Assembly: GCA_012729455.1 (NCBI GenBank)
Contig: JAAYDC010000004.1
Location: forward strand, 1-38,183
Length of the DNA stretch: 38,183 nucleotides
Direction of reading: 5' to 3'
Origin: Chloroflexota bacterium
GTDB lineage: Bacteria > Chloroflexota > Anaerolineae > UBA1429
The notes below the pieces were generated by a model. That model made no database searches, was not told the DNA's origin, and saw only the letters and a program-made list of their open reading frames with translations. The translations under genes and the position numbers were made by a program. Shown in pieces: positions 4,037 through 10,042 of this stretch; within the stretch, counting starts at the first letter, position 1, and each line of letters begins with the position of its first letter.

Positions 4037-4074
4037 GTATAGGTTTGTCGACCATACCCTTACGGAGTAGTTGT

Positions 4075-5676
4075 GTGCGGCGTGCGATCAATCGTCTGAT
4101 TCGGCTGGCTTGTCTGGTGGCTGTGGTGCTGGCACTGCATGCGCCGGTAGTTGCACAGGGCGGCGGTCCCTACCAGCTGTATATGCCATTGGTGCTGGAT
4201 AAGGTTGACCTGCCTCAGCCATCCATCCTAGCCTTAAATAACGCACCCACCAGTTGCGACTATATCATCCGCTGGCAGACCCTGTCCAATTATTACGATA
4301 GCTATGAGGTGCAGCGCTCGCAGGACGCCGACTTTGGCAACTCGGTGACTGTCTGCATCACCACCGCCGGCGAGTGCACTGTGCCGGCCGAACTGGACGG
4401 AACCTGGTATTTCCGCGTGAGCGGCAGGATAGCCAGTCAGCCCTCCAACGTCTGGAGCTCTACCTATACCGCGACGCTGCGCACTGGCATGCTGGTCTAT
4501 AACGAAAACACCACCCAGCTGTGGAATATGCCCAGAGTTGGTGCGCCCAGCGGCTGGAGCTGCATCAGTGCCGGCCGCGGTGTGACGGTGGCAGTGCTGG
4601 ATACGGGGATATACACCCAGCACCCCGACCTTGTGCCCAACCTGCTGGCTGGTTATAACTTTGTCGACGGCAACACCATCGTGGATGACCTGAATGGCCA
4701 CGGCACGCACGTATCCGGCATTATCGCGGCAGCCATCAATAATGGCGGTGTCGTGGGCGTGGCGCCCAGGGTCTCGCTGCTGCCCGTCAAGGTGTGTGGC
4801 TCGAACTGCCCCTGGGATGCAGTCGCGGCGGGCATCCGTTACGCCGTCGATCACGGCGCGCGCGTGATCAACCTATCCCTGGCGGGAACTACGCCCTCGG
4901 ATACGCTCTACGAAGCCATCAGCTACGCCTATAGTCACAACGTGGTGCTGATCGCGGCGGCCGGAAACTATGACAACGACACCGTGCGCTACCCGGCCGC
5001 TTATACCGAAACCCTCTCGGTGGCCGCCACCGATATCAATGACCTTCGTGCGACGTGGTCTTCGTATGGCCCCAACACCGACCTGGCCGCCCCGGGCGTG
5101 AATATCTCGAGCACGGTACCTAACAGCCCCTACTATGCGCTCAAGTTGGGCACCTCGATGGCAGCCCCGCATGTGGCGGGCGCCGCGGCGATACTGATCT
5201 CGGCACAGCCCAGTCTCACCGCAGTGCAGGCGCGCAACCTGATCACCTCCACCGCCAGAGACCTTGTTTACAGCGGTAATCCAAGTTACGGCGCCGGGTG
5301 GGACCCCTATACCGGTTGGGGACGCCTGGACGTGACGGCCGCCCTGGCCCGTCTGCCGCTTGCGGCCGTAGCCTCTGATGATCCGCCCCTGTCCGCGGAG
5401 GCGTGGTCGAGCGCCGCCAGCCCGCATCCAACGTCCTATGTGGCCGGCGAGGTGCTATATGCGCTGGTGAAGGAGCCGGGTCTGACCCCGCAGGCTGCGC
5501 CTCTTGCGCCTCTTGCGCTGGCACGCGCCGGCATCCGCTCCCGCCGGGTGGCTGCCGGGATGCCGGTCTGGGTGGCCGAGGTGCCGCGCGGCCAGGAAAA
5601 GGCCTGGGTCGAGCGCCTGCGCAACGACCCGCGGGTGGCCTATGCCGAGTTGAACGGCTTCCTTGAGCTGCAGTAG
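4075..5676 (+). CDS. Secreted S8 subtilisin-like protease with C-terminal propeptide-like domain
   Basis: A 533-residue serine protease. The GTG at 4075 is chosen because GGAG sits 7 bases upstream and a signal peptide starts immediately (RLACLVAVVLALHAPVVAQ). A 'YQLYMPLVL' segment follows, then an FN3-like region to about residue 130. The subtilase domain (about 165-425) shows the complete triad: Asp176 in VAVLDTGI, His209 in NGHGTHVSG, Ser361 in GTSMAAPHVAG, plus the oxyanion Asn298 in AAAGN. The last ~80 residues (from 5437) read YVAGEVLYALVKEP ... VWVAEVPRGQEKAWVERLR ... RVAYAELNGF. That is the pattern of a fervidolysin-type N-terminal propeptide, placed here after the catalytic domain. 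The gene abuts the convergent hydrolase without a gap. Confidence 0.92.
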   Translation: MRRAINRLIRLACLVAVVLALHAPVVAQGGGPYQLYMPLVLDKVDLPQPSILALNNAPTSCDYIIRWQTLSNYYDSYEVQRSQDADFGNSVTVCITTAGECTVPAELDGTWYFRVSGRIASQPSNVWSSTYTATLRTGMLVYNENTTQLWNMPRVGAPSGWSCISAGRGVTVAVLDTGIYTQHPDLVPNLLAGYNFVDGNTIVDDLNGHGTHVSGIIAAAINNGGVVGVAPRVSLLPVKVCGSNCPWDAVAAGIRYAVDHGARVINLSLAGTTPSDTLYEAISYAYSHNVVLIAAAGNYDNDTVRYPAAYTETLSVAATDINDLRATWSSYGPNTDLAAPGVNISSTVPNSPYYALKLGTSMAAPHVAGAAAILISAQPSLTAVQARNLITSTARDLVYSGNPSYGAGWDPYTGWGRLDVTAALARLPLAAVASDDPPLSAEAWSSAASPHPTSYVAGEVLYALVKEPGLTPQAAPLAPLALARAGIRSRRVAAGMPVWVAEVPRGQEKAWVERLRNDPRVAYAELNGFLELQ

Positions 5677-6474
5677 CTAGAGCGTGATGCGCAGCCCATC
5701 GTGTGCGCAGATGATGCCGGGATGGGCGAGCTCCCAGGTGCGCCGTTCCGCGGCAGATAACCCTGTTGTCAGCTGCCCTCCGACCAGGCGATGCCCAAAC
5801 AGGTGTGTCAGCACAGTACGGCGTGCCCCGATGCGTCCTGCCAGCGCTGCCACAGCCTCGAGCGTGCGCGCCGCCAGGGCGGGATGGTCGGCATCATCCA
5901 GGCTGGCCTCGAGATAGAGCAGATCGAGCTCGCGCAGCTCGTCGAGGGCGGCACAGCCATCCCCCAGATATGCCCAGCGCCTGGAGGCGCTGAACACATA
6001 GCCGATGGAGGCGGCGGTGTGGTCGGTTTTGACGACCTGAACGGCGGCATCCGGGAGAGTAAAGCGGTCGCCCGCGGTCAGCGGATGCAGACGAAAAGCC
6101 GAGGCGGCATAGGCCAGCTCACGCTCAAAGCGAGGCGCCTCCTCGGCCGGCAGCCACAGCTCTATGGGCTTGAACCCCAGCCTGAGCGGCATGTCGGGCA
6201 ACGCCGCCAGACCGGCGATGTGGTCGTAATGCCAGTGGGTGATGAGGATATTATCGGGCCAGTCGATCTGCTCGCGCTCGAGCTGGGCCTCGAGGTCGGG
6301 CCCGGCATCCACCAGGGTAACCTGGCGGTCGATGATGGCTAGCGACGAGCGTGTGCGGCGCAGCGCCGCATCGGCGCGTGCTGCCTGGCAGACGCTGCAG
6401 CGGCAGAACCAGATCGGCAGGGGCACGGCGCCGCCTGATCCGAGAGTTAATAGCGTTATGCCAGCTTGCTGCAT
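5677..6474 (-). CDS. PhnP-like metallo-beta-lactamase-fold phosphodiesterase
   Basis: A 265-residue metallo-hydrolase. It has the MBL signature THWHYDH (His80, His82, Asp84, His85), a later TDHT and a distal THLFGH. The N-terminal CRCSVC (Cys24, 26, 29) with an RTRSS segment is the extra zinc site typical of PhnP and PqqB-like proteins. PhnP hydrolyses 5-phosphoribosyl 1,2-cyclic phosphate in phosphonate catabolism; no phn genes are nearby, so a general cyclic nucleotide or ribosyl phosphate role is equally possible. No strong ribosome site is visible before the ATG at 6474. The stop codon abuts the subtilase stop on the other strand. Confidence 0.82.
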   Translation of the reverse strand: MQQAGITLLTLGSGGAVPLPIWFCRCSVCQAARADAALRRTRSSLAIIDRQVTLVDAGPDLEAQLEREQIDWPDNILITHWHYDHIAGLAALPDMPLRLGFKPIELWLPAEEAPRFERELAYAASAFRLHPLTAGDRFTLPDAAVQVVKTDHTAASIGYVFSASRRWAYLGDGCAALDELRELDLLYLEASLDDADHPALAARTLEAVAALAGRIGARRTVLTHLFGHRLVGGQLTTGLSAAERRTWELAHPGIICAHDGLRITL

Positions 6475-8050: not shown

Positions 8051-10042
8051 GTGGTTACCTTACGCACCCGCCAGATCCACCTCGACTTTCACACCAGCCC
8101 CCACATCCTGGATGTTGGGGCCGATTTCGATGAAGCGGCTTTTATCGAGACCCTGCAGCGCGGGCACGTGAATTCGTGCACCGTCTTTGCGCGCTGCCAC
8201 CATGGGTTGATCTACTATCAGCCCTCGCGCTTCCCGGCGGTGCATCCCGGGCTGCATACCAACCTGCTGGGCCGCCAGATCGAGGCGCTGCACCGCGCCG
8301 GAATGCGCGCGCCGATCTATATCACCATCGGCCTGGACGAGTACATGGCCGATCGTCACCCCGAGTTCCAGGAACAGAACCTGGAGGGGCGTGTGGGCAA
8401 CCGCGGTCCGCTCGACGCGCGCTGGCACAAGTTGTGCCTCAACAGCCCCTACCTCGATTATTGCTACGATCAGACCATGGAGGTCATGGACCTCTTTGGC
8501 GACGAGGTAGACGGTTTTTTCTTTGATATCATCAGCCAGGGCGAGTGCCTGTGCATCCACTGCGTACGCGACATGGTGACTGCCGGGCTCAACCCGGAAT
8601 CGAGCGCCGACCGGCGCCGCTTTGCCGACGACGTCGTGGAGCGCTACAAGCGCCGCTTTGCGCAGGGGATCCTGGCGCGCAAGCCGGATGTGACGATATT
8701 CCACAACAGCGGACATGTGGCTGCTACCTACCGGCCCGTGCTGGATACCTATACTCACCTGGAGCTCGAGTCGCTGCCCAGTTCGGGGCAGTGGGGCTAC
8801 AACCACTTTCCGATCGTGGCGCGTTACGCTCAGGTCCTGGACAAGCCCTTTCTGGGGATGAACGGCAAGTTCCACACCTTCTGGGGCGACTTTGGCTCGT
8901 TCAAGAGCCCGGCTGCGCTCGAGTTCGAGGTCATGCAGATGGTGGCCTGCGGGGCGGCCTGCTCTGTGGGCGACCAGCTGCATCCGCGCGGGCGCCTGAA
9001 TGGCCCGGCTTATGAGATGATCGGCAAGGTCTATGCCGAGGTCGAGGCCATGGAACCCTGGACGGCGGGCAGTGTGCCGCAGGCCGAGATCGCGGTGGTG
9101 AACCTGGAGGCGGTCGGACGCGAAGACAGCCGCGTAGACAGCGCGCACGCCGGCGTGCTTAGAATGCTGCTCGAGACCCAGCAGCAGTTCCATTATGTGG
9201 ATTTCGAGACGGATTGGTCGGCCTACAAGCTGCTGATTTTGCCCGACCGCGTCTGCCTGGATGAGGCTTGGGCGGCCAAACTCAAGGCCTACCTGACGCA
9301 GGGCGGTAAGGTGATCGCCACCTGGCGCTCTGGGCTGACGCCGGACGGCGCGCGCTTTGCGCTGGACGAGTTCGGCGTGGAGGCGATCGACGATGCCCCT
9401 TGGCATCCGGATTATGTGACGGCGCGCGAAGCGTTCGGCACCGGCATGTCCATGACCGAGCACGTCATGTACGATACCGGCTATGCCGTCAGAGCGCTGG
9501 CCGGCACCCGAGTGCTGGCAGATGCCTGGGCGCCCTACTTTAACCGCGCCTGGAACCATTTCTGCTCGCATCAGCACACCCCGCCCGAGGAAGGCCGCCC
9601 GGCGGGCTATCCGGCGGCAACGCTCAACGCGGCTGGCAATGTGATCTACCTGGCGCACCCGCTTCTGGCAGGCTACCGCAAGCGCGCCCCGCTGTGGTAC
9701 AAGGCCCTCTTTATGGCGGCCGTGCGGCGCTTTATTCCCGAGCCGATGCTGGCGGTGGAGGGCCCATCGACGGTGCAGGCGGTGCTGCATCACCAGCCCA
9801 ATCAGGGGCGCAGCGTGGTGCACCTCCTGCACTATATCCCCGAGCGGCGCGGCAGCGAGTTTGATACCTTTGAGGATATCATCCCGCTCTATAACCTGCC
9901 GATCCGCTTCCGCACCGATCAAGCCCCCGCGCGGGTCTACCTCGCCCCGCAGGGCGAGGAGGCGGCGTTCGAGTACCGCGACGGCTATGTACACACGGTC
10001 GTGCCGGCACTGGTGGGCCATCAGCTGGTGGTAACTGAATAA
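8051..10042 (+). CDS. GHL6-like glycoside hydrolase with beta-galactosidase trimerisation-type domain
   Basis: A 663-residue protein without signal peptide. The N-terminal ~330 residues look like a TIM barrel of the hypothetical glycosyl hydrolase 6 / fucosidase-related type: HLDFHTSP start, PIYITIGLDEYM, VDGFFFDIISQGECLCIHC (conserved Asp and Cys pair), then HLELESLPSSGQWGY. About 365-470 resembles the GH42-type trimerisation domain (YKLLILPDRVCLDEAW, YLTQGGKVIAT). A beta-rich C-terminus (VVHLLHYIPERR) ends the protein. The substrate is unknown; relatives are annotated as alpha-L-fucosidase or beta-galactosidase-like. GTG start with GGAG four bases upstream, immediately after the NYN stop. 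A long antisense frame mirrors it but is a composition shadow. Confidence 0.78.
   Translation: MVTLRTRQIHLDFHTSPHILDVGADFDEAAFIETLQRGHVNSCTVFARCHHGLIYYQPSRFPAVHPGLHTNLLGRQIEALHRAGMRAPIYITIGLDEYMADRHPEFQEQNLEGRVGNRGPLDARWHKLCLNSPYLDYCYDQTMEVMDLFGDEVDGFFFDIISQGECLCIHCVRDMVTAGLNPESSADRRRFADDVVERYKRRFAQGILARKPDVTIFHNSGHVAATYRPVLDTYTHLELESLPSSGQWGYNHFPIVARYAQVLDKPFLGMNGKFHTFWGDFGSFKSPAALEFEVMQMVACGAACSVGDQLHPRGRLNGPAYEMIGKVYAEVEAMEPWTAGSVPQAEIAVVNLEAVGREDSRVDSAHAGVLRMLLETQQQFHYVDFETDWSAYKLLILPDRVCLDEAWAAKLKAYLTQGGKVIATWRSGLTPDGARFALDEFGVEAIDDAPWHPDYVTAREAFGTGMSMTEHVMYDTGYAVRALAGTRVLADAWAPYFNRAWNHFCSHQHTPPEEGRPAGYPAATLNAAGNVIYLAHPLLAGYRKRAPLWYKALFMAAVRRFIPEPMLAVEGPSTVQAVLHHQPNQGRSVVHLLHYIPERRGSEFDTFEDIIPLYNLPIRFRTDQAPARVYLAPQGEEAAFEYRDGYVHTVVPALVGHQLVVTE

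Follow-up and report, generated by a model that had tools for sequence, protein, structure and literature searches.

A Chloroflexota subtilase with a prodomain-like domain after its catalytic domain

Within the 38,183-nucleotide stretch of Chloroflexota DNA analyzed here (the window), a gene on the forward strand encodes a predicted secreted subtilase whose S8 catalytic domain is followed by a domain of the fervidolysin/I9 prodomain type. Judged by alignment, the chain stops where a prodomain at the N-terminus would be cut. We propose, at a rough probability of 0.72, that the prodomain has moved from the N- to the C-terminus and that it folds, docks on and inhibits its own S8 domain without any cutting of a junction. 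The features of the gene are as follows.

4064-4067, + strand: Shine-Dalgarno-like GGAG, read from the sequence; the GTG start at 4075 lies 7 nt further on
4075-5676, + strand: subtilase gene, 533 aa, GTG start, TAG stop (5674-5676); from the ORF, the position of the ribosome-binding site and the S8 match
4075-4155, + strand: predicted signal peptide, residues 1-27, cut after ..HAPVVA; by eye
4180-4194, + strand: YMPLV, a YLPLV-like motif; from sequence comparison
4210-4485, + strand: lead segment, FN3-like by eye, without a significant family match
4543-5361, + strand: S8 catalytic domain (Pfam core 4573-5292); from Pfam, the AF2 model and the catalytic residues
4600-4602, 4699-4701, 4966-4968 and 5155-5157, + strand: catalytic residues Asp176, His209, oxyanion Asn298 and Ser361, respectively
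5362-5430, + strand: Ala/Pro/Ser-rich linker from S8 to the C-terminal domain; from the sequence and low pLDDT
5431-5673, + strand: C-terminal fervidolysin/I9-type prodomain-like domain; from PF22148, profile A1, the AF2 fold and structure matches
5647-5655, + strand: Glu525-x-Asn527, counterpart of the helix-capping pair; from its position in alignment A1, pair counts and PMC6993865
5656-5673, + strand: C-terminal tail GFLELQ, six residues, ending where P1 of a cleaved prodomain falls

The whole 533-residue protein matches the S8 family (PF00082) with an E-value of 1.1e-59, and both the catalytic fold and the Asp/His/Ser triad (D176/H209/S361) that mark family membership are present. When a 506-residue protein was modeled by AF2 from 40 S8 rows, pLDDT exceeded 90 over most of the S8 domain, and the S8 model matched subtilisins, including Bacillus lentus subtilisin (1ndu), with a TM score of 0.94. 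By eye, the putative signal peptide has a basic start, then a hydrophobic core, and an Ala at position -1. By its sequence the window protein is a secreted subtilase with intact catalytic residues, and proteolysis is predicted. The lead segment spans about 120 residues between the signal peptide and S8. The earlier note had described this region as FN3-like, a description that the tools did not confirm: the segment had no Pfam match even at E ≤ 10, matched an FN3 consensus protein at the level of chance (E = 0.86) and had a pLDDT mostly below 50 in the AF2 model.

The earlier note had also likened residues 455-533 (5437-5673) to a fervidolysin-type propeptide, and both family matches and the predicted fold agree with this. 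The part of the protein encoded from 5362 onward has a match to PF22148 (Fervidolysin_NPro-like) with an E-value of 6e-4 and 20.6 bits, the curated cut-off being 21. When twelve C-terminal domains were compared with this family, that of the window and 11 from other genomes, eight matched it, the best with an E-value of 1.4e-12, so the likeness is not due to chance. Modeled by AF2 on its own with eight prodomain rows, the window domain is predicted to adopt the propeptide's ferredoxin-like beta-alpha-beta-beta-alpha-beta fold with a core pLDDT mostly between 83 and 95. Foldseek placed subtilase propeptides (8c4z_A, Tk-pro, BPN' and subtilisin E pro) at ranks 1-6, 9 and 12. The structural Z-scores of the window domain were 5.3-7.0, and since ferredoxin-like RRM and ACT domains, which are unrelated, score alike, the fold alone does not prove kinship with prodomains. 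Kinship is established by the family match, the capping residues and the end point taken together. In the AF2 model of the full 506-residue protein the C-terminal domain, the part without aligned rows, was unfolded.

Subtilase prodomains carry a Glu-x-Asp/Asn pair that caps two helices of the protease (Glu69/Asp71 in BPN', Glu209/Asp211 in PfSUB1), a short tail behind the pair enters the active site, and the PfSUB1 prodomain ends at Asp217, six residues past Asp211 (PMC6993865). As in fervidolysin/I9-type prodomains, the window protein has such a pair, E525/N527, and a six-residue tail. We refer to subtilases with the domain after S8 as C-type and to those with the domain before S8 as N-type. 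The capping pair, as E/D-x-N/D, is present in 23 of 25 C-type proteins, with His replacing Glu/Asp in the other two. The chain stops six residues after the capping Asn/Asp in 15 of the 25 and seven residues after it in 7, the distances in the remaining three being 11, 11 and 14. This end-point pattern was first seen on twelve C-type proteins, and 11 of the 13 found later fit it. Known prodomain structures end at the same place: the pro chains 9rk9_A (97 aa) and 8c4z_A (112 aa) both finish at profile position 78, which is the C-type end, and the last residue of the model, 104, aligns with residue 77, the final one, of the BPN' prosegment 1spb_P. For N-type relatives, the distance from the capping Asn/Asp to the mature 'PND' start is 8 residues in 59 of 92 measured, which places their junction at about +6; the mature start of thermitase we take to be YTPNDP.

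In these alignments the end of C-type chains coincides with the cut site expected for an N-terminal prodomain, and the chain's own C-terminus is therefore probably located in the active site in the manner of a P1 residue. One end, that of L141, is YAEPDYYLYALSIPSR, a sequence that looks like what is left of a former pro/mature junction. The residue at +6 counts against the product-like reading. It is Gln in 14 of 25 C-type proteins and in 4 of 94 N-type proteins (Fisher p = 1.5e-8, relatedness uncorrected), and Gln is an unusual P1 for a subtilisin. We can only guess that freedom from cleavage at this position perhaps allows it.

No prodomain match was detected by Pfam N-terminal of S8 in the window protein, and the genome of the window (99% complete) contains no PF22148 match beyond the window gene and no PF05922 match. 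The classical pro-S8 order is thus not found; the domain, at 5431-5673, follows S8, and no adjacent N-terminal copy speaks against the arrangement that the earlier note described. The same order is shared by homologues. The survey covered 396 genomes from the class and 400 from the phylum, queried first with the domain and then with profile A1, built from the twelve C-terminal domains, and loci were sorted by the place of the domain relative to S8. Among 133 S8-linked matches the domain lies before S8 in 108 and after S8 in 25, numbers drawn from a biased sample that are not to be taken as frequencies, and no ORF among the 133 has the domain on both sides of S8. Six further matches were in ORFs without S8. 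The 25 C-type proteins belong to as many genomes, which represent 12 family-level groups of one phylum and include a genome of the window's own family (G010) and another outside its class (G467). Their catalytic residues are preserved: His and the oxyanion Asn in 23/23 aligned proteins, Asp and Ser in 22/23. A contig scan outside the phylum yielded one usable relative, an Armatimonadota protein, which is N-type. Among plasmid records, 953 matched the query and none did so over 80% of its length, hence none spans S8 and the C-terminal domain. The S8 proteins found on viral contigs were N-type or had no prodomain; none was C-type.

In an unrooted S8 tree the C-type proteins fall in several N-type neighborhoods, with six to seven changes of order, at least three of them forced by well-supported (starred) branches, a distribution that suggests repeated relocation of the prodomain. 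Because the AU test did not reject a single C-type clade (p = 0.40) and the short prodomain tree left the branching order unsettled, we claim neither one origin nor several. The earlier note had interpreted the arrangement as a relocation. The order of the domains and the identity of the prodomain bear this out, while derivation of the C-terminal from the N-terminal position is likely, though not proven by a tree that is unrooted. The different sequence of folding and activation steps that the note drew from it is a prediction. The two types also differ in where they carry the YLPLV-like motif. It occurs between the signal peptide and S8 in all 22 C-type proteins with enough N-terminal sequence and upstream in 3 of 108 N-type proteins, at least two of these inside a hydrophobic leader sequence. 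It occurs downstream in 28 of 85 complete N-type proteins, mostly within the last ten residues ('..YLPLVLR*'). The prodomain and the motif seem to compete for the C-terminus, with the motif at the front when the prodomain is at the end. The motif is perhaps a sorting or anchoring segment of the phylum that has gone unrecognized.

In ordinary subtilases, cleavage leaves the C-terminal tail of the prodomain in the cleft 'in a product-like manner' (PMC10580911). The CspB prodomain can fold and block its protease when it is provided in trans, and P3-P1 act as gatekeeper (PMC3567191). Covalent attachment on the N-terminal side is therefore dispensable, and a prodomain attached at the other end should be able to chaperone and inhibit without the junction being cut. 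We envisage that the whole chain would be exported first, with docking and folding taking place after the C-terminal domain has emerged. Like a prodomain at the N-terminus, this domain would dock onto two helices at the surface of the S8 domain in the same chain and aid folding. The six-residue tail would fill the S4-S1 subsites, where the chain's own carboxylate at P1 would inhibit the enzyme. The protease would start in the 'product' state, which ordinary prosubtilisins reach only by cutting the pro/mature bond, so that autoprocessing of the junction would be unneeded. The inhibitor would remain tethered by the flexible Ala/Pro/Ser-rich linker, and the N-terminus of S8 would be free from the outset. 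Activation could follow from cutting of the linker, destruction of the domain, or both, by another protease or another copy of the enzyme; alternatively, the tail could be released reversibly. We give even odds to the wider idea that subtilase zymogens include a genetically pre-cleaved class, in which a C-terminal prodomain, possibly moved several times, would have its carboxyl end as a product-mimicking tail. In such zymogens junction autoprocessing would be unnecessary, folding would be post-translational, and inhibition would be intramolecular until the linker is cut.

The conservation of the capping pair and of the end point bears on a different reading, in which the domain is a prodomain by descent that has been re-used for substrate, surface or protein binding or for stabilization, and is neither chaperone nor inhibitor, S8 folding unaided. 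Stand-alone I9-like folds do have regulatory roles (PMC6993865), certain subtilases such as Aeromonas ASP have no propeptide (PMC9549277), and I9-like ORFs without S8 exist in the phylum. However, a re-used domain would not keep the capping pair (23/25) together with the exact +6/+7 end (22/25), and we consider re-use fairly unlikely. We think it very unlikely that the domain works between molecules, docking on another subtilase or, as a domain-swapped pair, on a second copy. The linkers, of 11-33 residues, are short in some proteins, with 11 residues past the S8 profile match in L133 and 12 in L033, the CspB prodomain is active in trans (PMC3567191), and the PfSUB1 prodomain is reported to be able to drive dimerization (PMC10936178). 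Nevertheless, the window's genome has only two other S8-like matches to the window query and lacks any further domain of the PF22148 or PF05922 family, which leaves no evident separate partner; a swapped dimer is conceivable. The chance that a frameshift, a misassembly or a missed stop has made the N-terminal prodomain of a following gene look like a C-terminal domain is next to negligible, and we reject it for the C-type family as a whole: although the assemblies are metagenome-type and at one place (L111/L139) a C-type gene precedes a separate N-type gene, the same order stands at 25 loci, each from a different genome, the downstream sequence (up to 1500 bases; 115 and 193 at two loci) has S8 motifs at L111 alone, and the next gene in the window, of the metallo-beta-lactamase fold, is on the opposite strand and ends at 5677.

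Read as a relocated prodomain acting on its own protease, the window domain can be placed among known systems. The fervidolysin/thermitase-type subtilases (S8A, with a PF22148 or I9 N-terminal prodomain) are alike in S8 residues, predicted fold, capping pair and tail length, and probably in prodomain family. The window protein differs from them in that the prodomain follows S8, there is no pro/mature junction, and a YLPLV-containing lead segment precedes S8. The complexes of BPN' and Tk-subtilisin (1spb, 2z56) share the predicted fold and the tail that ends at the P1 residue. Their end, however, is made by autoproteolysis and leaves the prodomain free, whereas the end of the window protein is encoded and its domain is tethered by its N-terminal side. 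In subtilases that have a C-terminal extension or chaperone region, such as a Serratia-type autotransporter serine protease and Aeromonas ASP, which has a separate chaperone, help with folding likewise does not come from an N-terminal prodomain; to our knowledge, the helpers of these two are not I9/fervidolysin-type prodomains. Stand-alone I9 inhibitors (POIA1, yeast IB2, TgMIC5 and Plasmodium SUB1-ProM) are propeptide-like, and their C-terminus is also encoded, not cleaved (PMC6993865). They are separate products that act in trans, whereas the window domain is part of one chain with its presumed target protease.

The standard model for the subtilase family, in which the protease folds with the prodomain, cuts the junction and degrades the prodomain, rests on the N-terminal position. 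This position is described as a near-universal rule, 'Except for ... ASP' (PMC9549277), and the subtilase prodomain as '(usually) N-terminal' (PMC6993865). Because nature has permuted the order and kept the end point fixed, the steps of folding, cutting and degradation become separable. The C-type order tests the need for junction cutting, chaperoning that takes place only after the catalytic domain is made, and inhibition by a product-bound tail alone; it could also serve as a template for engineering switchable proteases with a tethered inhibitor. A search of freely accessible full-text journal papers turned up no description of a subtilase whose I9-type prodomain is C-terminal. Domain-architecture databases may already list S8 with a C-terminal prodomain.

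Several loci of the survey are of interest in their own right. At L111/L139 (G087:C143) a subtilase gene of N-type follows the C-type gene after about 400 bases, in the same orientation, and tandem copies of this kind could produce permuted orders. The I9-like domains at L177 (G481:C19), L082 (G453:C142) and L083 (G470:C17) are in ORFs without S8 and are possible trans-acting inhibitors. They comprise ORFs of about 175 aa, one of them with an N-type subtilase about 1.2 kb away, and a 344-aa ORF with the domain at its end. The viral-labeled IMG/VR contigs at L186 and L194 encode N-type subtilases with a shortened prodomain that seemingly lacks the first helix and second strand. The 1377-aa ORF at L042 (G317:C303) places a C-type subtilase behind two trypsin-like serine protease segments, making a three-protease polypeptide; by eye, the trypsin-like segments have HisAla... 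and GDSGGP motifs, with repeat domains between them.

Elsewhere in the window, 43-957 and 1255-2916 form an adjacent gene pair with leucine-rich repeats, the first of which seems truncated by the contig start and, by eye, may follow a protein-kinase-like part. The gene at 8051-10042 encodes a 663-aa GHL6 / Glyco_hydro_42M protein, a putative secreted-sugar or family GHL6 hydrolase, and adjoins NYN, DeoC and DegV genes.
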